DNA of 42,291 nucleotides from Clostridium sp. Marseille-P2415 (GTDB lineage Bacteria > Bacillota > Clostridia > Lachnospirales > Lachnospiraceae): NCBI RefSeq assembly GCF_900155545.1, contig NZ_LT732525.1:199155-241445 (forward strand), written 5' to 3'. A model generated the notes under the pieces. It was not told where the DNA came from, did not search any database, and worked only from the letters and a program-made list of their open reading frames with translations. The position numbers and the translations under genes are program-made. Every line of letters begins with the position of its first letter. Position 1 is the first letter of the stretch. Positions 25,397 to 38,008 of this stretch are shown piece after piece.

Positions 25397-26404
25397 TTAT
25401 TCCCCCGCAGGCAATGGACAAACCGATTTCCGCTCTATCAGCTCCCCTTTCAAAATCATCCGTACCGCCGCCTTTCCATTTTCAATCTGCCCGGTCAGGC
25501 ACTCCACACACTGTTGTGCCAGACGGTCAATGGGCGCATTGTAAGTAGTCAGTGACGGCGTCATGTATTGGGTCATGAAAATGTTGTCAAATCCCACTAC
25601 GGATACATCCTGTGGGATCACAAGTCCGCTTTCAATGATGCCACTGTAAATTCCGATTGCCAATATGTCCAGGCTGGCAAAAAAGGCTGTGGGCCTGTCC
25701 TCTCTGGAAAGTACATCCTGGGTACACTTATAAGCTTCCTCTATCGTATTCACATCGTAGATAAAATACTTCTTATAATTTTCAATCCCGTACTCTTCCA
25801 TGGCCTTCTTGCAGCCATTATACCGCTCCCTGAACCTCTGCCGGCTGAAATCACCAAACATCCCGGCAATCTTTCTGTGCCCCATGTCAAGAAGGTATTT
25901 CGTCATCAGGTATCCGCCATATTCATTATCAACAGTAATGCAGCTGATGTCCTCGGTAAAATTCCTGTTCACGAGCACCACCGGCACTTTATTTTCCTTC
26001 TGAAAATGCACTAAATGACGGATATCATCCTCCACGCTCATGCACAGAACTCCATCGATCCCCCTGCTCCCCAACATTTCCATATTGCGTTTTTCACATT
26101 CAATATCCTCATTGTTGTTATACAGGATTATGGAATATCCTTTTTGTGCGGCATACTTCTCAATGCTTTTCATGATCATCGGATAGAAGAGACTGTTGAT
26201 ATCCGGAACCAGAAGCGCTATGGTGTAAGTCTTTCCTTCCCTAAGGGCCTTGGCCATAATGCTGGGCTTATAATTCAGTTCCTCCACCGCCTTCAGTACC
26301 TTTTGACGTGTCTCTTCTTCTACAAATATCCGGTTTGACAAGGTTCTGGATACTGTGCTGGGCGATACCCCGGCTAATTTCGCAACTTCTTTAATTGTAC
26401 TCAT
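25397..26404 (-). CDS. LacI family transcriptional regulator (copy 1)
   Basis: A 335-residue LacI/GalR repressor. The DNA-binding head reads TIKEVAKLAGVSPSTVSRTL with hinge helix YKPSIMAKALREGKT, followed by a periplasmic-binding-protein-like effector domain (IALLVPDINSLFYPMIMKSIE; VVGFDNIFMTQYMTPSLTT). The ATG has AAGGGAG upstream. It lies 119 bases after the TRAP large permease gene on the same strand and has a promoter of its own. The head is very similar to the second LacI gene at 35383-36396 (SPSTVSR then A or T, L, S; IFVEE), so the two may share an operator. Effector presumably the TRAP substrate or a pathway intermediate. Confidence 0.94.
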   Translation of the reverse strand: MSTIKEVAKLAGVSPSTVSRTLSNRIFVEEETRQKVLKAVEELNYKPSIMAKALREGKTYTIALLVPDINSLFYPMIMKSIEKYAAQKGYSIILYNNNEDIECEKRNMEMLGSRGIDGVLCMSVEDDIRHLVHFQKENKVPVVLVNRNFTEDISCITVDNEYGGYLMTKYLLDMGHRKIAGMFGDFSRQRFRERYNGCKKAMEEYGIENYKKYFIYDVNTIEEAYKCTQDVLSREDRPTAFFASLDILAIGIYSGIIESGLVIPQDVSVVGFDNIFMTQYMTPSLTTYNAPIDRLAQQCVECLTGQIENGKAAVRMILKGELIERKSVCPLPAGE

Positions 26405-26522: not shown

Positions 26523-27827
26523 TTAATAACCGGCCAGACCTGGCAGCCACATGGAAACTGCCGGAATAAAGGTGACAAGCATAAGAACCACAAAAATTAC
26601 GGCATAATAGGAGAACAGTGGCTTCATGACGCCTTCCAGTCTGAGCTTAGCCACCTTGACTCCTACAAACAGGATGTTTCCAACCGGAGGTGTGATGGTT
26701 CCGATACACAGATTGTAGGTTATCATGATACCAAACTGCAGAGCACTCATTCCAAAGGACTGGCAGATTGGCAGGAAAATAGGCGTGAAAATCAGTACCG
26801 CAGGCGTAATATCCATAAAGGTTCCGACAAATAGAAGGAACACGTTGATAATTAAAAGTATCACTACCGGGCTTTTGCTGATTCCCAGCAGGGCGGATGA
26901 GATTGCCTCCGGAATTCCTGTAAACGTCATGACCCAGGCCATGATATTGGATGCGCCTACCAGAAAAATGATAATGCCTGTCATTTTTGCACTGTCAATA
27001 AGGATGCCTGTCAGCTCCTTTAAGTTAATAGTCCTGTAGATAAACAGGGACAGAATCAGGCTGTAGGCCACTGCAATGGCAGATCCTTCCGTGGCAGTAA
27101 ACACACCGGCAATGATTCCGCCGATTACGATAACAATCAGCATCAGGCTGGGGATAGCCTGCCAGGTAATCACCATGGCTTCCTTGAAGGTTAGCTTTAC
27201 AGAGCTCTTATACCCGTGTTTTTTTGCATAGAAGAATGCAACAGCCATACACGCAACGCCCCATAGGATACCTGGGATATAACCGCCCATGAACAGCGCA
27301 GCCACCGAGGTGCCGCCGCTGACCAGAGAGTATGTGATCAGTACATTGCTCGGGGGAATGAGCAGCCCCGTAGGCGCCGTGGCAACATTAACTGCTGCGG
27401 CAAAATTATCGTCATATCCCTCTTCTTTTTCAATAGGGCCGATAATGGAACCCATGGCGGAAGCTGCCGCCACACCGGAGCCTGATATAGCGCCGAACAG
27501 CATATTGGCAACCGCATTGGTATGGGCCAGTGAACCCGGCACCCGCCCTGTAAGGACCTTGGCAAAATTAATCAAACGGAGGGCGATACCGCCTTTATTC
27601 ATGATATTTCCGGCCAAAATGAAAAATGGGATGGCTAAAAGTGTGAAAATCGAGATACCGGAAAAAATACGCTGGGTTGCTGTCAGTACGGTGGCCCCGA
27701 AATTCAGGGTGGGCAGGATAGCCAGAATAGATGAAATGCCCAGAGAAACCGCAATCGGGACACCTGCCAGCAGCATGACGATCAGGACGACTGCTATGAT
27801 CAGGCCGGAAAATAATGCTATACTCAT
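26523..27827 (-). CDS. TRAP transporter large permease subunit (DctM-type)
   Basis: A 434-residue membrane protein with about twelve hydrophobic helices, the transport subunit of a tripartite ATP-independent periplasmic transporter. Family features include MLLAGVPIAVSLGISS near the N-terminus, FGAISGSGVAAASAMGSI (GSGVA substrate/Na+ region) and PTGLLIPPSNVLITYS. It imports an organic anion with sodium. The ATG has AAAGGA at 6 bases and follows the small subunit by 12 bases. It forms a set with the receptor and small permease directly upstream. Confidence 0.95.
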   Translation of the reverse strand: MSIALFSGLIIAVVLIVMLLAGVPIAVSLGISSILAILPTLNFGATVLTATQRIFSGISIFTLLAIPFFILAGNIMNKGGIALRLINFAKVLTGRVPGSLAHTNAVANMLFGAISGSGVAAASAMGSIIGPIEKEEGYDDNFAAAVNVATAPTGLLIPPSNVLITYSLVSGGTSVAALFMGGYIPGILWGVACMAVAFFYAKKHGYKSSVKLTFKEAMVITWQAIPSLMLIVIVIGGIIAGVFTATEGSAIAVAYSLILSLFIYRTINLKELTGILIDSAKMTGIIIFLVGASNIMAWVMTFTGIPEAISSALLGISKSPVVILLIINVFLLFVGTFMDITPAVLIFTPIFLPICQSFGMSALQFGIMITYNLCIGTITPPVGNILFVGVKVAKLRLEGVMKPLFSYYAVIFVVLMLVTFIPAVSMWLPGLAGY

Positions 27828-27839
27828 ATGGATTCCTTT

Positions 27840-28316
27840 CTACTGTGCTTTTAACTGTCCGCACAGATTTGCTATATTGATGATGCTGTAGACCGCTGTC
27901 AGTACTCCGCTGACAGGCATGATGCTGTACACATAACCCATAGGTATTCCCAGGGATGCTGTCACCTGGGTCATGGTGAGCTTTGTTATGGATATGCCTC
28001 CGTAAATCAGCACCAATACGGTAAATACGAGTATGATGCACTCTGTCGCCACTGCCAGCAGGATTCCCTTTTTCTCTGTGAGCTTATCAGCAAAGTATGC
28101 AAGGCGCATATGGTCCCGCTCTCCAAAGACCAGGGTTGCAGCAAACATGGACATCCATGCAAAGCTGTAGGTCAAAAGTTCCTCTGAAAACGAACTGGGA
28201 TTGTTGAACACATATCTGGTAACCACCTGGTACACAGCAATAACCGTCATAAAGCTGAACATGACTGCACATACGGCACTCAATATTTGATCCATGGTCT
28301 TTTTTAACTTACTCAT
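27840..28316 (-). CDS. TRAP transporter small permease subunit (DctQ-type)
   Basis: A 158-residue protein with four hydrophobic helices, matching the DctQ family (TYSFAWMSMFAATLVFGERDHMRL). It links the extracellular receptor to the large permease. Start 28316 has AAAGGAGG 8 bases upstream and overlaps the receptor gene by 8 bases; a longer frame to 28373 has no site. Part of the P-Q-M order on the minus strand. Confidence 0.93.
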   Translation of the reverse strand: MSKLKKTMDQILSAVCAVMFSFMTVIAVYQVVTRYVFNNPSSFSEELLTYSFAWMSMFAATLVFGERDHMRLAYFADKLTEKKGILLAVATECIILVFTVLVLIYGGISITKLTMTQVTASLGIPMGYVYSIMPVSGVLTAVYSIINIANLCGQLKAQ

Positions 28317-29343
28317 TCCGGCTGCCTCCTTTCCCGTCCAGGGCCGCATTCTGAATGGACTGGATGGAATCATAGATGGGTACTAATCTCGGGTTATTCT
28401 TCAGCACTTCCTCATGGAGAGGCAGCACCTTCTGCCTGAACGGCTCCATATCTGTCTCAATGAACTCCACGCCCATTTCCTCCGCCTGTTTTTTCACATC
28501 CTCGATCTGGCCGTTCCATGCCTGGACCTCCGCCTGAGTGCTGATTTTAGCCGCCTCGTCAAAGACCGCCCTCTCCTCAGGCGTCAGGCTCTCCAGGAAT
28601 TTTAAGTTTGCCACCAGCAGATCCGGCACGATCTGATGCTGGTTATACGTATAGTACTTTGCAACCTCCCCGTGTTTCATGGTGGTAAGTGCCATCTCGC
28701 TGTTCTCGGCACCGTCAATTACTCCTTGTTGAATGGCTGTATATACCTCGCCGTAGCTCATAGGCACGGCAGCGGCTCCCATCATGTCCATCATTCTCAC
28801 GTTGGTGGGACTGGACTGTACCCTGATTTTCATTCCCTTTAAATCATCCGGTGTGCGGATCGGTTTTGTTGCATAAATGTTCCTCACTCCGGCTGTATAC
28901 CACGCTACTGCCCGAAAACCGGATTCATCCGTTGATTCGTAGATGCTGTTCATAAAATCGTCATCCTCTATTACAGCATTGAATCCTTCCAGCCCTTTAA
29001 ACAGATAGGGGAGACTGAATATCTGGTATATATTGTTAAATGTTTCCAGGTTACTGGTGCTGCTCACCACATATTCAATAGCCCCTGTTTGCACCAGTTC
29101 AATGGCCTTTTGGGAAGAACCCAAAAGCTCATTCGGGAAAATCTGTACTTCGTATTTATCCCCCAGATTCTTTTCCACATAATCCTTAAATGCCAGTAAT
29201 CCAATATTATCGGGATGAGTTATCGGCTGACTGTTGGATATCCTGATGATGCGCTTTCCGTTATCCACAGTTCCACATCCTGTCAGACTTACCATCATGA
29301 TTAAACTCAGAATAAGTGCTGCCACTGTTTTTGCTGCTCTCAT
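28309..29343 (-). CDS. TRAP transporter substrate-binding lipoprotein (DctP-type)
   Basis: A 344-residue receptor. Signal peptide with lipobox LTGC at ~19-22 makes it a lipoprotein, suited to a Gram-positive envelope. The body has the DctP pattern: the start RISNSQPITHPDNIGL, the central VPMSYGEVYTAIQQGVIDGAEN and the arginine in MKIRVQSSPTNVRMM that normally clamps the carboxylate of the ligand (DctP R-x-Q/R region). The ligand is thus probably a carboxylic acid, consistent with the adjacent CoA-transferase. Which acid cannot be told. Confidence 0.94.
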   Translation of the reverse strand: MRAAKTVAALILSLIMMVSLTGCGTVDNGKRIIRISNSQPITHPDNIGLLAFKDYVEKNLGDKYEVQIFPNELLGSSQKAIELVQTGAIEYVVSSTSNLETFNNIYQIFSLPYLFKGLEGFNAVIEDDDFMNSIYESTDESGFRAVAWYTAGVRNIYATKPIRTPDDLKGMKIRVQSSPTNVRMMDMMGAAAVPMSYGEVYTAIQQGVIDGAENSEMALTTMKHGEVAKYYTYNQHQIVPDLLVANLKFLESLTPEERAVFDEAAKISTQAEVQAWNGQIEDVKKQAEEMGVEFIETDMEPFRQKVLPLHEEVLKNNPRLVPIYDSIQSIQNAALDGKGGSRNE

Positions 29344-29369: not shown

Positions 29370-30137
29370 TCAGAGCTTCTTAATATGAAACCCGCCGTCA
29401 ATATCAATATAATTGCCTGTACTGTAGATGAATTTCTCACTGCAGAATGCGCTGACCGCATCGGCAATGTCCTGTGGCGTACCCCACCTGGCAATGGGGA
29501 ATACCCCCTGGTCAATTAAGTCGCTGTACTTCTTGTGAACCACCTTTGTCATATCCGTATCAATTACGCCCGGACGGATCTCATATACCTGTATGGCGTT
29601 TGCTGCCAGACGGTCCGCATACAAGGTGGTAAGCATGGCCACGCCTGCCTTTGAAACGCAGTATTCTCCCCTGTTGATGGAGGATACAGTGACGGAGCTG
29701 GAACTGATATTTACAATCACGCCGCGGCGGCGGCTCTTAACCTCCTGCTTAAGCATCTGCTTTGCCACCAGCTGGGTCATAAACATGGTACCTTTTGTGT
29801 TGGTTCCTACCACATAGTCAAAGCTTTCCTCCGTCATCTCCAGAAGGTCCTGCCTCACCTTAGGAGCAACCCCTGCATTGTTCACCAGTACATCGATATC
29901 TCCATACCTTTCCACTGCCTGTCTAAGGAATTCTTCCCTGTCTCCTCTGTCGGTGGTGCTTCCCTGCACATACAGGTAATCTATGCCCAGGCAGCCCAGC
30001 TCATCCAGATTTTCCTTATAATCCTCAGGGCTGTTCACATCCAGGATAGCCACGTTATAACCGTCAAGTCCCAGCTGGCGGACAATGCCAAATCCAATCC
30101 CCCTGCTTCCTCCTGTTACAATTGCTGTCTTTTTCAT
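29370..30137 (-). CDS. Short-chain dehydrogenase/reductase
   Basis: A 255-residue classical SDR. Cofactor loop TGGSRGIG, NNAG at ~87-90, catalytic serine in the NISSSSVTVSS strand and YxxxK in EYCVSKAG are present, with the C-terminal GGFHIKKL end. Family members oxidise hydroxy-acyl-CoA or alcohols, or reduce ketones, with NAD(P). In this operon it follows an enoyl-CoA hydratase, so oxidation of the 3-hydroxyacyl product or reduction of a keto group is the simplest proposal. The ATG has AGGAGG 9 bases upstream and lies 13 bases after the cupin gene. Confidence 0.92.
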   Translation of the reverse strand: MKKTAIVTGGSRGIGFGIVRQLGLDGYNVAILDVNSPEDYKENLDELGCLGIDYLYVQGSTTDRGDREEFLRQAVERYGDIDVLVNNAGVAPKVRQDLLEMTEESFDYVVGTNTKGTMFMTQLVAKQMLKQEVKSRRRGVIVNISSSSVTVSSINRGEYCVSKAGVAMLTTLYADRLAANAIQVYEIRPGVIDTDMTKVVHKKYSDLIDQGVFPIARWGTPQDIADAVSAFCSEKFIYSTGNYIDIDGGFHIKKL

Positions 30138-30150
30138 TTCTGTCTTCCTC

Positions 30151-30531
30151 CTACTTCAGTTCCCCAGAGCTTTCCTGGGCCCAGTGCTCTGCTACCATTT
30201 TAGGTGCATAAACAAACATCATGTGCATTTCCCCGGCTCCGGTGTTCACAAGTCCGTGGGATTTGCCGCTTTCAATGTAAATGGTATCTCCTTCCTTCAC
30301 CTCCTCGGTTTCGTTGTCCACAGTCATCTCCCCCCGGCCTTTCAGGATGGTATATGTCTCCACCGTCACGTGGTCATGAATGGGAACCGAGCCGCCCTGG
30401 TAAATCACTACATATCCCTGGCAGAAATAATCACCGTTGATTGCCCCGTTTTCCCCGATCATTACCCTTGTCCTTCTCCCTGCCGGAAATTCCGTTCCCT
30501 CGATATCTTCGAATATGTTTACCTTTTTCAT
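30151..30531 (-). CDS. Cupin domain protein
   Basis: A 126-residue single cupin. Metal-ligand motif PIHDHVTVETYTILKG (H-x-H ... E) and the second motif histidine in GKSHGLVNTGAGEM are visible. Small cupins of this kind act as isomerases, decarboxylases or dioxygenase-like binding proteins on small acids and sugars. Start 30531 (MKKVNIF) follows the enoyl-CoA hydratase stop by 4 bases; an extension to 30570 would overlap that gene. Its catalytic role in the pathway is unknown. Confidence 0.85.
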   Translation of the reverse strand: MKKVNIFEDIEGTEFPAGRRTRVMIGENGAINGDYFCQGYVVIYQGGSVPIHDHVTVETYTILKGRGEMTVDNETEEVKEGDTIYIESGKSHGLVNTGAGEMHMMFVYAPKMVAEHWAQESSGELK

Positions 30532-30535
30532 CCTT

Positions 30536-31318
30536 TTACCTTCCTTCATACTTTGGCGGGCGCTTTTCAAGAAATGCCGTAAGCCCTTCTATAGCATCGT
30601 GGGTAGTATATATAAATCCCAGGGCCAGGGCATCCCTCTGCGCAATGTCCGCAGGCTGTTTGTTGGCAGCGTCATATACGAGGCGCTTGTCAATCTTCAT
30701 GGTCACAGGCGCTTTAGAAGCCAGTTCCCTTGCCAGCTCCTCCGCTTTTTCCCTCATCACCGCCACATCTTCATATACCTCTGCCACAAGGCCGTAGTCC
30801 AGCGCCTCCTGAGCCGTAATCATCCTGCCCCTTAAAAGCATGTTCTTGGCTCTGCTCTCACCAATCAGCCTTGGCAGGCGCAGTGTACCGCCCCAGCCTG
30901 GTATCATGCCGATATTAATCTCCGGCAGTCCGAATTTAGCATTGGCGGAACAGATACGGATATCACAGCACATGGCAATCTCCAGCCCGCCGCCCAGGCA
31001 GTATCCGTTAACAGCGGCCACAACGGGGATATCCATGGTCTCAATTTTGGAAAACAGCTTATGGCCTATCTCGATGGAATATCTGGATTCCTCCGGTGAC
31101 ATCTTCACCAGCCTGGCGATATCAGCTCCTGCTACAAAGGACTTCTCCCCTCCCCCCGTGATAATCAAACAGTGAATGCTCTTGTCTGCACGAACCTGGT
31201 CTGCCAGTGTATCCATGTATTCCACAATGGGCACACTGAGGGCATTCCTTGTCTGTGGTATATCCACCGTTAAGATTGCGTAACCTTCTTTTTTCTCTAA
31301 TCTGATTCCTTCTATCAT
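30536..31318 (-). CDS. Enoyl-CoA hydratase/isomerase (crotonase family)
   Basis: A 260-residue crotonase. The oxyanion-hole glycine segment NGYCLGGGLEIAMCCDIRI and the GGEKSFVAGADIARL loop are intact. Both glutamates of true hydratases appear, E113 in GGGLE and E133 in LPEIN. This supports water addition to an enoyl-CoA rather than only isomerisation. The ATG at 31318 lies 9 bases after GGAGG. It begins 14 bases before the CoA-transferase stop in the previous gene's wake, so the genes are tightly coupled. Confidence 0.92.
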   Translation of the reverse strand: MIEGIRLEKKEGYAILTVDIPQTRNALSVPIVEYMDTLADQVRADKSIHCLIITGGGEKSFVAGADIARLVKMSPEESRYSIEIGHKLFSKIETMDIPVVAAVNGYCLGGGLEIAMCCDIRICSANAKFGLPEINIGMIPGWGGTLRLPRLIGESRAKNMLLRGRMITAQEALDYGLVAEVYEDVAVMREKAEELARELASKAPVTMKIDKRLVYDAANKQPADIAQRDALALGFIYTTHDAIEGLTAFLEKRPPKYEGR

Positions 31319-31331
31319 CACATTCGTCCTC

Positions 31332-32876
31332 CTATTCTGATAATCCCATACGCTCCGGGCGGAAAATTCTCTCATCCATAAGGCTTGGCTGCTCCGGCAT
31401 CAGGGGAACAAAATCCATCTGGTCCAGGATATCCTTCTGAAGGTCTGCCCCTGGTGCAATTTCCTTAAGCACGAGCCCTTCCCCGGTCATCTCAAATACG
31501 GCCCTCTCCGTCACATAGAGCACACTCTGATTTGTCTCACGGGCATAATCTCCGCTGAATGTAATGTGTTCCACGTCCTTTAAAAATTTCTTGTGGCGTC
31601 CTTCCTTAAGGATATTAAGCTTTCCGTCCCGGATCTCCGTCTTCAGTCCCCCAGCAGTAAATGTCCCACAGAACACACACTTCTTGGCTGTCTGGGAAAT
31701 GTCAATAAAGCCGCCGCATCCCGCTATGGTGGGACCGAATTTACTCACATTCACATTTCCGCGGCTGTCTGCCTGGGCCAGTCCAAGACAGGTCAGGTCC
31801 AGTCCGCCTCCGCTGTAAAAATCGAACTGGGAAGGGCCGTCAATCATGGCTTCGGAATTGTAAGCCACTCCGAAGATGGCTCCCCCGGCAGGCACACCGC
31901 CGATGATTCCCTGCTCGATGGTCATCTTTATATAGCCGGAGATTCCCTCCTCTGCAGCCACCCTTGCCACGCCGTCCGGCATGCCGAAACCAAGGTTAAT
32001 CACGCTCCCCCCGGCCAGTTCCATTGCGGCTCTTCTGGCCACCACCTTTCTCTGGTCCAGAACCATAGGATCCATGCTTTCCACAGGCATCTTCACATCG
32101 CCTGTAAGGGCAGGATTGAATTCGCCCTCTATGGTCTGCTGCTGGCCCGGATTTACGACAACGGCATCCACCAGGATACCCGGTATCCTCACATCCTTAG
32201 GGTTTAAGGTCCCTGCCTTGGCCGCAAACTTAACCTGACAAATCACGATGCCGCCACAGTTGTGTACAGCTTGTGCGATGGCCATGGATTCCAGATAGGC
32301 GGGCTCGTAAGCCAGGGAAATATTCCCCTCTTCATCACCGATGCTTCCCCGAATCAGGGCAACCGTCACCGGATATGTCTTGTAGCGGAGCCACTCCTGT
32401 CCATCCATCTGAATCAGTTCCACCAGGTCCTCCCTGGTCACATCGTTTAACTTTCCCCCTGAAATACGAGGGTCCACGAATGTCTTCAATCCTGTCTGAG
32501 TGACCACGCCCACACGCTTTGCAGCGATCTCACGGTACTGCAGGGTTATGATTCCCTGGGGAAGGTTATAGGCCTCAATCTGATTCTCATTGGCCATCTG
32601 CTGCATCTTGGGCGACCAGCCCCAATGTCCGCCTACCACCCGTTTGACCATTCCCTCATGGACAAAGCGGCTGATGCCTCCCTGATCCTTGTCACCGATC
32701 CCAGCTGAATGGGTCAATGTCAAATCCCGCGGCTTTTTCTCATTAAGAAACCGCCTTTCCAGGGCTTCAAACAACGCATTCGGTTCCATGATACCTCCTC
32801 CATTGCCTGACACAGCCACGCTGTCACCGTCCTTAATCAGCTTCACCGCTTCCTCTGCCGACATAAATTTACTCAT
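31332..32876 (-). CDS. Acyl-CoA:acetate CoA-transferase, fused alpha-beta type
   Basis: A 514-residue family I CoA-transferase in which alpha and beta halves are joined, as in YdiF and propionate CoA-transferase (Pct). The N-terminal GDSVAVSGNGGGIMEP, the DQGGISRF region and the catalytic glutamate in MTIEQGIIGGVPAGG (E321) are visible. It activates an incoming carboxylate by swapping CoA from acetyl-CoA or another acyl-CoA. Position: second gene of the operon, after the flavoprotein (61-base gap). This gene, with TRAP and crotonase, defines the pathway as CoA-dependent acid catabolism. Confidence 0.94.
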   Translation of the reverse strand: MSKFMSAEEAVKLIKDGDSVAVSGNGGGIMEPNALFEALERRFLNEKKPRDLTLTHSAGIGDKDQGGISRFVHEGMVKRVVGGHWGWSPKMQQMANENQIEAYNLPQGIITLQYREIAAKRVGVVTQTGLKTFVDPRISGGKLNDVTREDLVELIQMDGQEWLRYKTYPVTVALIRGSIGDEEGNISLAYEPAYLESMAIAQAVHNCGGIVICQVKFAAKAGTLNPKDVRIPGILVDAVVVNPGQQQTIEGEFNPALTGDVKMPVESMDPMVLDQRKVVARRAAMELAGGSVINLGFGMPDGVARVAAEEGISGYIKMTIEQGIIGGVPAGGAIFGVAYNSEAMIDGPSQFDFYSGGGLDLTCLGLAQADSRGNVNVSKFGPTIAGCGGFIDISQTAKKCVFCGTFTAGGLKTEIRDGKLNILKEGRHKKFLKDVEHITFSGDYARETNQSVLYVTERAVFEMTGEGLVLKEIAPGADLQKDILDQMDFVPLMPEQPSLMDERIFRPERMGLSE

Positions 32877-32937
32877 ATTCCTCTCACCTTCCTATATGTT
32901 ATTTTTTCTTTCAGGTCTGCCTTCCATGAAATCGTTG

Positions 32938-34950
32938 TCATCGAAGATTCGATGAATCGCTCTGAAAATATACTCCTTCCCTGTATCTCTTCCATACGGC
33001 CTCGAACCAGCAGTCATCCTCCGGTATGGGCCGCACCTTCCTCCACAGGAAGCGGCTGCTGTCATCAAAATACTCCAGTTCCTGTATCATTTCAGAAAGC
33101 CCCTGATCTTCCTCTAGAAAGCGGAAACACTCTGGAAGGTCTTTCGATGGCTTTTCACCGTTTTCATCATAAATCAGGTATGATCCCCTGCTCTTCCCGC
33201 CGTGGGCAATGTAATCATCTATTGCCTCCAGATAAGCTTTTTGACTGGCAAGGAGATCACGAAGCCGGTAGAGGCGTCCTAATTCCCCTGAACCAATAAT
33301 TCCCGAGGTTTCCAGCCTCTGCCTCTGGATCCGGTTTTCTCTGAGCGCAGTCCGGATCCCCTCCCTGGAACGGATATGTGCCCCATACCGCGACATACGG
33401 ACTCCAAGCTTCTTCCTCTCCTCCTTCATATCCATGATGCATTCCTTCGTTGCTAAAGCTTTCGTGCCAAAATCAACAGATGCCATGATTTGCTGCCCGC
33501 ATCGGCTGGCTATCTCCTTTCCGGATAATGGCTGTCCAATATAACAGTTGACGATATACTCCGCTGCCCTCATGCTTCCCACCTGTCCTGAATTAAGGGC
33601 GCTCCCCCCGGGCCGGTAGACACCATGGCTCCCATTGACCTCTCCCACCGGAAAGAAATGCTTTAAGTTGCTCTCCCACCACCAGTCACCTGACAGACCC
33701 CCATTATTGTGCTGAGCACATACCGCAATCTCTAATTTTTCCCGATACAAGTCAATCCCATGACTTCTGTATAATTCAATTGCGGCTGGATTCATACTTT
33801 CCAGTCTTTTAATGGGAGCCTCCTTTAAACCGCCGGAGCTTTTCAGGTAGTCATACGTTTCAGAATGCAAAAGTGCCGTGTGAAAATGTCCTTCCTTCTC
33901 ACTGCCGGAAGGATTCCTCTGATAATCCAGGAATACCTTCCGCCCCTTTATAACCGTCTCCTGATATACCAGGATATCAATGAGGGACGAACCATATTTC
34001 CTGGTCTTTCGCGGATCAAATGGCCACTGGTATCCTTTTAGGAAAATTGCATATAACATACTTTCGGGACAGTCGAAATATTCATCCAGGAATTCCCGTT
34101 CTCCACTTCCATCCTGCTCCGTTGAAATATACCTTGGAATGACCTGCTGGTAAGTACCTGACAGGTTCCACCGAAACTTAACCGAGGCTATGCCATATTG
34201 GGATTCCGTCAGGTTTTTTCCCCTGGCGCCGGCCCTTAGTGCAGTACCGGTTCCGCCGGTCTGGCTGACCGGGTACACGGACATATCATATAACCCTGCC
34301 TCTCCCCCTGTGGCATAAACGATATTCTCCGAGGAAAATACCACATACCTCTGTTCCGGCTTTACAGCCCTTCTATTCAATGCGAGGACACCTCTGGACC
34401 TGCTCTCCATTCCGTACCGCTCAGTCAGTATCTCAATCACTTGATACCCGTCAAATACAGGGATGCCGTATCCTTCCACTTCCTTCCACAGTGCCTCTGT
34501 CATAAACTTTGAGGTCAGCGGGCCTGCTGATGTGCCTCTTCTGAATGGATCATGGTCTGTCTTATAGCCTATATATTCGCCGGCTCCGTTGTGGGGAAAG
34601 GGGACCCCTATGTCTGCCAGATGGCAGAACCCTCTCACGGATAGCCCTGCCTCAGCCAATGCCAGATCTCCGTCCATACAGCCACCTTCAAAAAGGGTCT
34701 GCGCCATCTGGCGCACGCTGTCAGACTCGCCGGAGCAGGTCGTCAGCTTGTAATAGGTCTGTTTATCAGAACCCGTATTCCTGGAAGTGCCCATCCTTTT
34801 CCCCTCGGTTATAATAGCAATATCCCTTTGCCCCTGCTTATAGAGCGAGGCTGCTGCGTTCAGTCCTGCTGCGCCGCTTCCCACTATGATGGTCTGAATG
34901 ATATACAGAGGGAGTATTTTCCCGTCTAAGCAAACTTCTTCTTGTTTCAC
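32938..34950 (-). CDS. FAD-dependent oxidoreductase, fumarate reductase/succinate dehydrogenase flavoprotein superfamily
   Basis: A 670-residue flavoprotein. FAD-binding motif IIVGSGAAGLNAAASLY lies near residue 22, and the closing FAD segment FFPVGEVNGSHGVYRPGGSA appears at ~460, both as in the fumarate reductase/aspartate oxidase superfamily. No heme or FMN-binding domain is attached. The usual HxxxGG is QHNNGGLSG here. It probably oxidises or reduces a C-C bond next to a carboxylate. The start is taken as GTG 34950, 8 bases after AAAGGAG; the ATG at 34968 is inside the conserved operator. First gene of the operon. Confidence 0.85.
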   Translation of the reverse strand: MKQEEVCLDGKILPLYIIQTIIVGSGAAGLNAAASLYKQGQRDIAIITEGKRMGTSRNTGSDKQTYYKLTTCSGESDSVRQMAQTLFEGGCMDGDLALAEAGLSVRGFCHLADIGVPFPHNGAGEYIGYKTDHDPFRRGTSAGPLTSKFMTEALWKEVEGYGIPVFDGYQVIEILTERYGMESRSRGVLALNRRAVKPEQRYVVFSSENIVYATGGEAGLYDMSVYPVSQTGGTGTALRAGARGKNLTESQYGIASVKFRWNLSGTYQQVIPRYISTEQDGSGEREFLDEYFDCPESMLYAIFLKGYQWPFDPRKTRKYGSSLIDILVYQETVIKGRKVFLDYQRNPSGSEKEGHFHTALLHSETYDYLKSSGGLKEAPIKRLESMNPAAIELYRSHGIDLYREKLEIAVCAQHNNGGLSGDWWWESNLKHFFPVGEVNGSHGVYRPGGSALNSGQVGSMRAAEYIVNCYIGQPLSGKEIASRCGQQIMASVDFGTKALATKECIMDMKEERKKLGVRMSRYGAHIRSREGIRTALRENRIQRQRLETSGIIGSGELGRLYRLRDLLASQKAYLEAIDDYIAHGGKSRGSYLIYDENGEKPSKDLPECFRFLEEDQGLSEMIQELEYFDDSSRFLWRKVRPIPEDDCWFEAVWKRYREGVYFQSDSSNLR

Positions 34951-34962
34951 CAGTCTGGCTCC

Positions 34963-34986
34963 TTTCATGAAATCGTTTGTGCAAAC
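34963..34986. promoter_or_regulatory. Operator-like element, copy 1 (flavoprotein operon)
   Basis: On the plus strand: TTTCATGAAA, then T, then CGTTTGTGCAAAC. It includes the palindrome CGTTTG-TG-CAAACG (34974-34987), typical in size and style of LacI-family operators. It lies 17 bp downstream of the -10 box, a position where a bound repressor blocks transcription. It matches 23 of 24 bases of copy 2 at 37953-37976. Confidence 0.8.
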
Positions 34987-35002
34987 GTTGTCTTGCAATT
35001 TC

Positions 35003-35031
35003 AAAATACCATTTTTGTATTAATTAGTCAA
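35003..35031 (-). promoter_or_regulatory. Promoter of the flavoprotein-CoA-transferase-TRAP operon
   Basis: Minus strand TTGACT (35026-35031), 17-bp spacer and TATTTT (35003-35008). The operator-like palindrome follows immediately. Confidence 0.7.
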
Positions 35032-35257
35032 CACTTTTTGCTTATTCTTTTATTTATTATATATTTTTTATATTTTAAAGCCTATTTTCATCTGTTTTAA
35101 TATGATTCATTGGTTATTTTTCATATCATATTGCAAGAAATCGTTATCATTACTTTTTTAACATCTTGAGTACTTATAAGCCAATTTATAAATCTAGTAC
35201 AAATACTAATAATTCATCCTCTTAATAAAACCCATAATCTCATTTAGATTGCGATAA
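35032..35257. other. AT-rich gene-free segment between the operon promoter and LacI copy 2
   Basis: Very AT-rich sequence with long T and A runs upstream of the operon -35 box, possibly an UP element. No ORF, RNA gene or second operator was recognised here. Confidence 0.5.
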
Positions 35258-35306
35258 GATACAAAAAACAGGGACCAGTCACTTGCTGATCCCTGTTTTC
35301 TGTATC
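35258..35306 (-). terminator. Terminator after LacI copy 2
   Basis: AAAACAGGGA (35265-35274) pairs with TCCCTGTTTT (35290-35299), with outer GATAC/GTATC arms. On the minus strand the stem runs into TTTTTTGTATC. Confidence 0.75.
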
Positions 35307-35382
35307 TTTATTGTCAAGAATTTTCTTACAACACGATTCTACCTGAGTACCACTCCTATAACTTTCGTATAGCACATTCCTG

Positions 35383-36396
35383 CTACATTTCCTCATAAGG
35401 AATTCTGCAAACCGAATTACGGATTTGCAGTCTCCCTGTCATTTTCATAACCTTTCTCCTGGTTCCCTCTTTTTCTGTTATTTCCTGGATCAGAAGATTT
35501 AAGGCCATCTGAGCAATTTCTCTGGCAGGATGTTCGAAAGAAGTCAACGGTGGCACCATATATTGGGAAAAGATAGTGTCATCATATCCAATCACTGAGA
35601 TATCAGATGGAATTTTAAGTCCTGAACGGTCAACTGCATAGTAGGCCCCTGGCACCAAAATATCACTGAACGCAAAAATAGCAGTAGGCCTGTCCTCACC
35701 AGAGAGCATAACCATGGTTTTCTGATATGCGTCTTCAACGGAGCTGACATCCCGAATCAAATAACGATCATAACCAGTCAGTTCCCTTTCCTTAAAAGCT
35801 CGTAAAAAACCATCAAGCCGCGCCTCATTATACTGCCGTTTTTTGTCGTCCATCATACAGGCAATTTTTCGGTGCCCTTGATCCAGCAGATAGCTGCCCA
35901 CTGTATATCCGCCATCATAATCATCACCAAGGACACAATTAATTTTTCCCTCATCAAACTTTCTATTAATCACGACCATCGGAATCGTATCGGTAAAACA
36001 TCTGATGTGTTCCAAACTGTCGGACGAAGGCAAAAGGATGATACCATCAACAAACAGTTTTTCCAATGCAGTAAAATACTCTTTTTCCCGTTCCACCTGC
36101 TCCAGAGCATCACAAAGAATGATGGAATAGCCTTTGTGATAAGCAAACTCCTCTATATATTTCACGATTTTGGGATAATAAGGGTTTTGAATATCGGGAA
36201 TCACCAAGCCTAAAAGTCCGGTTTTCGACTCTTTCAGACTTCTGGCGGCGAGACTGGGTTTATAATCCAGCTCTCTGACAGCCTCCATTACCCGTCTTCT
36301 TGTTGCTTCCTCAACAAATATTTTCTGCGATAACGCTCTTGATACAGTACTGGGGGACACCCCTGCTAATTTGGCGACATCTTTTATATTTGCCAT
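35383..36396 (-). CDS. LacI family transcriptional regulator (copy 2)
   Basis: A 337-residue LacI/GalR repressor. The head NIKDVAKLAGVSPSTVSRAL and hinge YKPSLAARSLKESKT are followed by an effector domain (LGLVIPDIQNPYYPKIVKYIE; VIGYDDTIFSQYMVPPLTS). It resembles copy 1 along its whole length, including IFVEE after the recognition helix and the TAIFAFSDILVPGAYYAVDRSG region. It lies between the DUF2264 gene and the flavoprotein operon, both of which carry the same operator, and is the best candidate for binding it. Own promoter at 36432-36460. Confidence 0.94.
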   Translation of the reverse strand: MANIKDVAKLAGVSPSTVSRALSQKIFVEEATRRRVMEAVRELDYKPSLAARSLKESKTGLLGLVIPDIQNPYYPKIVKYIEEFAYHKGYSIILCDALEQVEREKEYFTALEKLFVDGIILLPSSDSLEHIRCFTDTIPMVVINRKFDEGKINCVLGDDYDGGYTVGSYLLDQGHRKIACMMDDKKRQYNEARLDGFLRAFKERELTGYDRYLIRDVSSVEDAYQKTMVMLSGEDRPTAIFAFSDILVPGAYYAVDRSGLKIPSDISVIGYDDTIFSQYMVPPLTSFEHPAREIAQMALNLLIQEITEKEGTRRKVMKMTGRLQIRNSVCRIPYEEM

Positions 36397-36431
36397 TTTG
36401 CTTTTCTCCCATCAGATTACATTTTACCCCC

Positions 36432-36460
36432 AGTATAATACATTTCTTATTATTTCACAA
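36432..36460 (-). promoter_or_regulatory. Predicted promoter of LacI copy 2
   Basis: Minus strand TTGTGA (36455-36460), 17-bp spacer, TATACT (36432-36437). No copy of the 24-bp operator is present here, so the regulator does not appear to repress itself through it. Confidence 0.55.
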
Positions 36461-36482
36461 TCACAATGAACAATCTGTCTGA

Positions 36483-37688
36483 TTAGTGTCCGCCTTTTGC
36501 CACATGTGCATCATGGTCATAAATAGTCTGGTGTACTTTTTCATGCCGGGCTTCATCAATCATGCACAGACCCCCTCCCCACTGACGTTTATTCGTCCAC
36601 TCCGTATCAGGTCCCGACCAGAATGGATCAGAAGGCGAAAGTCCTAATGGCAAAAAAACAGTTGTACACAGATACAGGCTGCCCGTTGATATATATACCT
36701 CACCAATTTCTCTCTGGGCTCCGCACCATCCGATCTTAAGCCAGCCATTTTCATCAAACGTCCCAGGTCTCATCATATTTTTGATGACAGCAGTCAGCGC
36801 ACAGCGCACTTGCATAGGGGTAACTTCTTCAGGCAGATTATGGCATAATGCCATTTGGGAAAGGTGCTGCATCGCTCCAAACCGATAAGCAAGGGAGCGC
36901 CCTACAGCCGGAAATGTTCCTTCAGGGCTGATCAATCTTTCTAAAATGCCCGCATAACGCTTTGCGCGGGGAACCACACAATCGCATAAAATACTCCAGT
37001 CCTTATCGGCAGGCGCCATAATCCTTGCCACATCATAATACATAGGCTGTATTACGAAACTGTTGTAATAGTTCATACAATACTCTTCCCCATCCCCGTA
37101 CATGCCATCACCCTTGTACCAAATTTCATGAAAATGCAAGGCGGAATCCAGATGATTCATGTCATAAGGTTTTCCCATTACATAAAGCAGGGTTTCTATC
37201 ATGGCAAGAAACATGTAGAAGTTATTGAAACCCGATTTTATTTTCGTGGATTCGGCCATACAGTCCGCTATATTTTGCTTTTGCCGATCAGTCAGCGGAT
37301 CCAGAAGGACACTTTTTGCCCGTATCAGCCCATGAGCAAAGAATGCCGCGTCTACCAAAGGTTGTCTCCCCTCTTTAAAATTCACAAAATCCGGTGATTG
37401 GGGATCTGTTGTGTTAATAATAGCCTTGCGGGTAATTTCAACGTATTTCAGCCGTAAGGCTTCTTCCTCACCTGTTAATCCCTCACAGGCCAGCCATGCC
37501 GAAATTCCATCCAGGGTTCTTCCAATCGCTTCCAAATGTGTGAATTTCCTTCGAATATCCACCTCTGATTTCTCTTCTACCCGGCATTCACAAGGCATAT
37601 CCTTATGAAGCCTGCCTTCCGCCGCCGCTTCAAGAACGGGAGCTGCTATTTGAAGCATTATCTTTAACCAATATTTTCTATCATCCAT
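36483..37688 (-). CDS. DUF2264 domain protein
   Basis: A 401-residue soluble protein matching DUF2264: DGISAWLACEGLTGEEEALRLKY near the N-terminus, NFYMFLAMIETLLY, and the YGDGEEYCMNYYNSFVIQPMYYD block typical of (alpha/alpha)6-barrel enzymes. GRSLAYRFGAMQHLSQMAL continues the pattern. Members occur near polysaccharide and uronate catabolic genes and are suspected glycoside hydrolases or lyases; activity is unproven. No signal peptide. The ATG has AAGGAGA 7 bases upstream. Its promoter carries operator copy 2, tying it to the TRAP/CoA-transferase operon. Confidence 0.85.
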   Translation of the reverse strand: MDDRKYWLKIMLQIAAPVLEAAAEGRLHKDMPCECRVEEKSEVDIRRKFTHLEAIGRTLDGISAWLACEGLTGEEEALRLKYVEITRKAIINTTDPQSPDFVNFKEGRQPLVDAAFFAHGLIRAKSVLLDPLTDRQKQNIADCMAESTKIKSGFNNFYMFLAMIETLLYVMGKPYDMNHLDSALHFHEIWYKGDGMYGDGEEYCMNYYNSFVIQPMYYDVARIMAPADKDWSILCDCVVPRAKRYAGILERLISPEGTFPAVGRSLAYRFGAMQHLSQMALCHNLPEEVTPMQVRCALTAVIKNMMRPGTFDENGWLKIGWCGAQREIGEVYISTGSLYLCTTVFLPLGLSPSDPFWSGPDTEWTNKRQWGGGLCMIDEARHEKVHQTIYDHDAHVAKGGH

Positions 37689-37952
37689 GTTATCTTCTCC
37701 TTATATTTTAGTTACATAATTTTAGCAAAACACCATTTTGAGTAACAAAAGCACTAGTTACGGGAACGCATATTTTCATATTCTCTTAATTCTAATACAT
37801 TGGCTCGAACATTTATGATCATCTGGTATGTATAAACTTTACAATAAAATTACCCCTCCAAATATAGCTTCGAGCTTGTAGTTTTTTATTACCCCCATTC
37901 ACCATTTATTAGTTTTACAATTTTCGCATTGCTGACAAAAATCAATGAAACA
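37689..37952 (-). other. Long untranslated leader of the DUF2264 gene
   Basis: About 285 bases separate the predicted transcription start (~37973) from the DUF2264 ATG. The leader has two purine-rich GGAGGGG/GGGGG-like sites not followed by long frames and a 23-codon frame (37708-37779, starting MKICVPVTS) without a good ribosome site. It may hold a decayed first gene or an RNA element; I recognise neither. Confidence 0.4.
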
Positions 37953-37976
37953 GTTTGCACAAACGTTTTCATGAAA
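37953..37976. promoter_or_regulatory. Operator-like element, copy 2 (DUF2264 gene)
   Basis: On the minus strand: TTTCATGAAA, then A, then CGTTTGTGCAAAC. The wider sequence ATGAAA...TTTCAT around it makes a 28-bp imperfect palindrome centred on TG. It starts 4 bp downstream of the -10 box, overlapping the transcription start. Differs from copy 1 by one base in 24. Confidence 0.8.
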
Positions 37977-37979
37977 TAT

Positions 37980-38008
37980 TTTATAACATATGCACAATCA
38001 TATGTCAA
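37980..38008 (-). promoter_or_regulatory. Strong promoter of the DUF2264 gene
   Basis: Minus strand TTGACA (38003-38008, consensus), 17-bp spacer, TATAAA (37980-37985). Confidence 0.75.

Follow-up and report, generated by a model that had tools for sequence, protein, structure and literature searches.

We analysed a 42,291-nucleotide stretch of the genome of Clostridium sp. Marseille-P2415 (this whole stretch is referred to as the window), which contains two copies of a short operator-like element, one in front of an operon headed by a flavoprotein gene and the other in front of a gene for a DUF2264 protein. The pattern TTTCATGAAAWCGTTTGTGCAAAC was found with 0 mismatches at 34963–34986 on the plus strand and at 37953–37976 on the minus strand, and the two copies are identical at 23 of 24 bases and lie in opposite orientation, as had been noted in an earlier reading made without database searches (the sequence-only reading). 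That reading had placed each copy just downstream of a promoter, and the promoter-like sequences TTGACT-17-TATTTT (35003–35031, minus strand) for the flavoprotein operon and TTGACA-17-TATAAA (37980–38008, minus strand) for DUF2264 were indeed found at these genes. The promoter scan demands T at position 6, and the DUF2264 promoter is hence missing from its list; promoter-like sites in the region numbered 12 compared with 9.8 in shuffles (standard deviation, 2.6), which is not above chance. The element is probably an operator to which either or both of two LacI-family proteins encoded in the window, LacI1 and LacI2, are predicted to bind, and through which both operons would be controlled.

All of the genes concerned lie on the minus strand. 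The first predicted transcription unit begins with the gene for the FAD_binding_2 flavoprotein (aspartate oxidase or fumarate reductase type; 32938–34950, with a GTG start at 34950) and continues with genes for a CoA-transferase (31332–32876), an enoyl-CoA hydratase family protein (30536–31375, the true start of which may be further in), a small Cupin_2 protein (30151–30531), a short-chain dehydrogenase (SDR; 29370–30137, above the cut-off of NCBIfam NF009386), the DctP, DctQ, and DctM proteins of a tripartite ATP-independent periplasmic (TRAP) transporter (26523–29343), and, after the TRAP genes, the candidate repressor LacI1 (25397–26404). The second consists of the gene for the DUF2264 protein (36483–37688), a relative of GH154 and beta-glucuronic acid dehydratase, and, 86 bp downstream, that for the candidate repressor LacI2 (35383–36396), the LacI gene which the sequence-only reading had seen between the two copies. 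An inverted repeat at 35265–35299, followed by a T run on the minus strand, is terminator-like and lies between LacI2 and the flavoprotein promoter; the hairpin scan, with loops of up to 8, does not list it. The operator in front of DUF2264 is separated from the start codon by 256 bases (37689–37944).

The sequence-only reading had taken occurrence of the motif at many unrelated loci as the outcome that would speak against an operator. In the whole genome of 5,247,868 bases in 9 contigs, exact copies of CGTTTGTGCAAAC were found only at the two promoters of the window, and 3 more places matched at one mismatch. No match to the 24-bp pattern at up to 3 mismatches was obtained in 100 shuffles of the window. 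At the same threshold, 295 genomes of the order were searched for the 24-mer, and 3 contained it, with this genome contributing the two exact copies and each of the two others a single 3-mismatch match; given that a reversed control likewise gave one match in each of two genomes, these latter matches are at chance level. The sites are thus few and stand at functionally related genes, as expected of a LacI-family operator.

A scan of genome contigs with the DUF2264 protein identified two related loci, L006 (genome G686; 82% identical) and L007 (genome G687; 80%), both from uncultured Lachnospiraceae. At both loci, three MaoC-like genes are followed in order by those for the flavoprotein, CoA-transferase, enoyl-CoA hydratase, cupin, SDR, and DUF2264 proteins and a second CoA-transferase; the Pfam assignments on L006 cover the latter gene and two MaoC genes. 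DUF2264, which is separate from the flavoprotein operon (the acid operon) in the window, therefore sits inside that operon in two relatives, and for this reason its functional link to the flavoprotein, CoA-transferase, and TRAP genes, which the sequence-only reading had proposed, is well supported. No other DUF2264 protein above 51% identity was found among 25 genomes of the same genus, and among 195 genomes around that of L007 a DUF2264 protein at 80% was present only in the genomes of L006 and L007; by this distribution, the operon with DUF2264 is an accessory block. Sites related to the element precede the MaoC genes (CGTTTGCACAAACG) and the flavoprotein gene (CGATTGTACAAACG) in L007 and the flavoprotein gene (CGATTGTACAAACG) in L006. 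The flavoprotein promoters of L006 and L007 share a perfect 30-bp block over this site and are also alike in the –10 region, with the sequence downstream having diverged.

Alignment of the five sites from the three genomes, four of which are distinct and two identical, yielded a 28-bp dyad, ATGAAA-N-CGTTTG-YR-CAAACG-N-TTTCAT, which replaces the 24-bp unit of the sequence-only reading. In front of the flavoprotein operon, the dyad occupies 34967–34994 (minus strand; transcribed strand AAGACAACGTTTGCACAAACGATTTCAT) and begins 8 nucleotides past the –10 sequence; its inner palindrome is perfect, one outer arm is decayed, and an intact CG-centred element, ATGAAATCGTTTGTGC, is contained at 34967–34982 (plus strand). 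The DUF2264 dyad, ATGAAAACGTTTGTGCAAACTGTTTCAT, occupies 37945–37972 (minus strand), begins 7 nucleotides past the –10 sequence, and contains the intact CG-centred element ATGAAAACGTTTGTGC at 37957–37972 (minus strand). In each window copy, one element is thus complete and the other partly decayed, and all five dyads begin 6–8 nucleotides past the –10 sequence of promoters with a 17-nucleotide spacer. A search of the three genomes with GAAANCGTTTGYRCAAACGNTTTC at up to 3 mismatches gave 5 places (2 in this genome, 1 in G686, and 2 in G687), all at promoters of the regulon, compared with 0 for a reversed control. A looser form of the dyad at 1 mismatch, applied to 387 genomes of the family, recovered the two sites of this genome and one place in G328 only. 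In G328, a CG-centred dyad, GAAAACGTTTGCGCAAACGTTTTA (L138, 1501–1524), immediately precedes a LacI gene whose product has the helix SITTVSH; this dyad was not counted as a member of the regulon, given that it precedes a different kind of LacI gene.

Seven of the 14 half-site columns (G3, A4, A6, G9, T11, T12, and G13) are invariant in all 10 half-sites, and A5 of the outer arm is kept in 9 of the 10. The sequence-only reading had described GTTTG-TG-CAAAC as a CG-style palindrome, which needed correction: classical LacI sites have CG at the centre, where the dyad has TG or TA, and its CG steps occur one per half-site (in 9 of 10 half-sites), with the two steps of one site being 12 bp apart. 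According to a survey of LacI-family local regulons (Ravcheev et al. 2014, PMC4052901), a central CG is present in 1173 of 1251 even palindromes of such operators. The same reading had argued that the ATG in the element is not a start codon, which was supported. The flavoproteins of L006 and L007 have Met starts that align with the GTG at 34950, and the ATG inside the element is therefore not used as a start. TTTCATGAAA is not a conserved arm, given that TTTC precedes ATGAAA in none of the three sites of the relatives and only ATGAAA is conserved.

Both LacI1 and LacI2 carry the PF00356 helix-turn-helix domain and a PF13377/PF00532 effector domain above the cut-offs. Among 31 matches to LacI2 in the genome, including LacI2 itself, LacI1 is its closest paralogue (46% identity), and the recognition helix VSPSTVSR is common to LacI1, LacI2, and a LacI protein of a further genome, G454. 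The sequence-only reading had favoured LacI2, which is a candidate by position; the partner kept in a relative, however, is an ortholog of LacI1. The LacI protein of G687 (helix VSASTVSR) is 70% identical to LacI1 and 44% identical to LacI2, and because G687 keeps the operator, LacI1 has the better evolutionary support, with LacI2 having the better position; both may bind. With the best few candidates per genome scored, relatives of LacI1 at E values up to 1e-65 were found in 2 of 397 genomes of the family (this genome and G454), and relatives of LacI2 at E values up to 1e-60 in 1 of 280 genomes of the order (this genome).

The G454 protein, which is 48% identical to LacI2 (157/327), is encoded after a DctP gene (L134, L136), the promoter region of which contains two CG-centred ATGAAAACGGTTTC sites. 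This unit resembles the window in the VSPSTVSR helix, the TRAP binding protein, and the outer half-site ATGAAAACG, but differs in that its two CG-centred sites are separate, at 34 bp apart. Given that a LacI protein with the same helix has CG-centred sites with the half TGAAAAC, which equals the outer half here, we somewhat favour the view that the dyad consists of two inverted LacI sites that overlap, rather than of the site of a single dimer. Each such site would be composed of an outer half TGAAAWC, a CG step, and an inner half GTTTGYR, with the CG steps 12 bp apart. LacI1, LacI2, or both would occupy the 28-bp dyad, which spans roughly +1 to +28 of the two promoters, and would block transcription of two units: flavoprotein–CoA-transferase–enoyl-CoA hydratase–cupin–SDR–TRAP–lacI1 and DUF2264–lacI2. 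A compound of the pathway would free the repressors, so that both operons would be turned on together, each remaking one repressor. A uronic-acid-like ring would be imported by the TRAP transporter, and its dehydration by DUF2264 would be the first step of the acid pathway or close to it. In a tentative extension, to which we give a small chance, two LacI paralogues that recognise the same DNA but differ in their ligand domains would compete or alternate on the overlapping double site, allowing a joint response to two ligands (for example, the imported uronide and a downstream acid), with the uronate dehydratase feeding the CoA-linked pathway. Such a CoA-linked uronate dehydratase pathway was not found described in a few literature searches.

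Several observations weigh against this interpretation. The motif was built from only five sites, four of them distinct; the DUF2264 site of the window lacks one of its CG steps; and every CG-centred element is asymmetric. Each of the five 28-mers is an inverted repeat with 10 or 11 of 14 pairs symmetric, but equal symmetry is reached by 28 of the 42,264 28-mers of the window, and symmetry by itself therefore proves nothing. The inner palindrome alone, CGTTTGNNCAAACG (any centre, up to 1 mismatch), shows no enrichment, with 9 places in this genome compared with 17 for the reversed control, so that the claim depends on the longer motif. Each of the four genomes searched contains single TGAAAWCGNTTKY sites, with 13 in this genome (including the two window sites) compared with 4 for the reversed control, and one other exact copy of the half-site (C9:1704797) sits within a permease gene. 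A separate promoter-like site is present for LacI2 (36460–36432). With regard to the relatives, the LacI1 ortholog of G687 is on another contig, which has no dyad site, no LacI2 ortholog was found in G687, and G686, for which completeness is not stated, has the site yet no LacI protein above 36% identity to LacI2 among 20 matches. A search of 20 kb of G454 that allowed up to 6 mismatches detected no dyad.

A possible, if less probable, account is that a single LacI dimer binds the inner palindrome CGTTTGY|RCAAACG with its TG or TA centre and that the outer GAAA bases are flanking contacts, which would leave LacI control uncontested. The flavoprotein site of the window and the MaoC site of L007 have a perfect inner palindrome, and the similar dyad of G328, with a CG centre, stands before its own, different LacI gene. 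Among the 1251 even palindromes of the 2014 survey, moreover, the central pair differs from CG for 49 regulators and is degenerate for 29. The outer GAAA arms (G3, A4, and A6 in 10 of 10 half-sites, A5 in 9 of 10) are nevertheless conserved like the inner part, and they lie farther from the centre than the seven base pairs said in that survey to be contacted; the LacI protein of G454, with its VSPSTVSR helix, also has CG-centred sites. That the regulator is instead another LacI-family protein of the genome, or CcpA acting at DNA like the catabolite-responsive element (cre), appears decidedly unlikely. The 31 matches to LacI2 include other possible binders, the half TGAAAWCG is like a cre half-site, and sites of this type occur elsewhere, three of them adjoining another LacI gene at C9:1469340; a global regulator, however, would be expected to have many sites, and the dyad is present at two places only, with the half GTTTGTG being a poor fit to the cre consensus.

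Two further accounts dispense with a repressor. The inverted repeat lies within the expected transcripts, and the folding of the MaoC copy of L007 is somewhat better than that of shuffled sequences (equalled by 20 of 200), but action as an RNA hairpin in the 5' leader is very improbable, given that the folding z values of the five sites are 0.59, –0.31, –1.51, –0.97, and –0.09 and that CGTTTG is changed to CGATTG in L006 and L007 without a compensating change on the other arm. Near-identity over 24 bp in inverted orientation might also suggest a dispersed repeat or a duplicated promoter; with two copies in 5.25 Mb, unrelated flanks, and conservation at the corresponding operon of other genomes, the former is effectively ruled out, as is the latter given that the flanks of the two copies differ. 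The reading as a LacI-family operator is thus retained, and its specificity and conservation indicate that the operator is real; the kind of control is already known and ordinary, and the detail is useful.

The DUF2264 protein matches PF10022 as well as the solved beta-D-glucuronic acid dehydratase 9o4u and glucuronate dehydratase 9nwf (E value of 9.6e-87, residues 2–374); it also matches the solved beta-galactosidase 8oi4. GH154 proteins were proposed as uronate dehydratases in a 2025 study (PMC12269599), and ten active-site residues were mutated there, 9 of which are kept in the window protein, with W178 being F. The proposed catalytic residues Y229, R285, and Y289 correspond to Y208, R264, and Y268. 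By homology over the whole domain, the protein belongs to the GH154/uronate dehydratase family and probably dehydrates an uronic-acid-like ring. It is thus similar to BcGDH/GH154 in sequence and active site, but its partners are CoA-linked (CoA-transferase, hydratase, flavoprotein, and SDR) rather than GH88: a Pfam scan of 19 window proteins found no GH88 or GH105 protein. Genes for such dehydratases frequently lie near GH88 or GH105 genes, although this is not a strictly defining feature. The other DUF2264 gene of this genome (47–49% identity; L065, 8165–11861) adjoins genes for GH88 and phosphotransferase system EIIC proteins, and pairing of the DUF2264–GH88 type is described for GH154 proteins in PMC12269599.

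Comparison with the local regulons of PMC4052901 revealed similarity in the inverted-repeat operators. In that survey, 110 operons are preceded by overlapping LacI-family sites spaced by about 13 bp, with the binding mode left unsettled, and most local regulators are autoregulated. The window differs in that its CG steps, at a distance of 12 bp, form an inverted pair, that two paralogous repressor genes each lie beside one target unit, and that a CoA-linked acid operon and the gene for a relative of uronate dehydratases are the targets. The operator offers a short, clean test case for overlapping LacI sites, the binding mode of which was left open by that survey. In addition, the uronate-dehydratase-like DUF2264 protein is tied to the TRAP-fed CoA-transferase pathway by two lines, a shared operator and a shared operon, which allows a concrete search for the substrate.

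Relatives of the flavoprotein were found in 17 of 397 genomes of the family, with identities of 47–58% outside the copy of the window. In 20 stretches of 7.7–20 kb around such genes (L064, L070–L088), some of which end near the gene so that the promoter may be missing, a search for the dyad at up to 5 mismatches gave one match, with 5 mismatches, in L080; the inner palindrome was absent at 0–1 mismatches and was matched at 2 mismatches in 10 of the 20. At 32927–32940 of the window, at the flavoprotein stop and before the CoA-transferase gene, TGAAATCGTTGTCA differs at a single base from a CG-centred TGAAANCGNTTTCA site, and no TGAAANCGNTTTCA-type site was found at up to 2 mismatches at the matching place in L006 and L007. 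Identification of the cupin protein as KdgF found no support, with none of 32 matched solved sequences being so named and the best being DddK (6e-9).

A second flavoprotein (49–50% identity) is encoded in the same genome, on C8 and 24 kb past the window (L070, 10855–19998); its neighbours are a GntR/FCD regulator, a hydantoinase_A protein, a relative of the enoyl-CoA hydratase (32%), and a CoA-transferase (57%). An SDR gene is located near the flavoprotein gene on the same strand in 16 of 23 loci (the window, L006, L007, L064, and L070–L088), and a family of proteins of 444–487 amino acids is encoded near it in 11 of the 23, the one member scanned being an Oxidored_FMN protein. Judged by this gene neighbourhood, the flavoprotein and SDR, together with the 444–487-amino-acid family in some loci, constitute a recurrent module.

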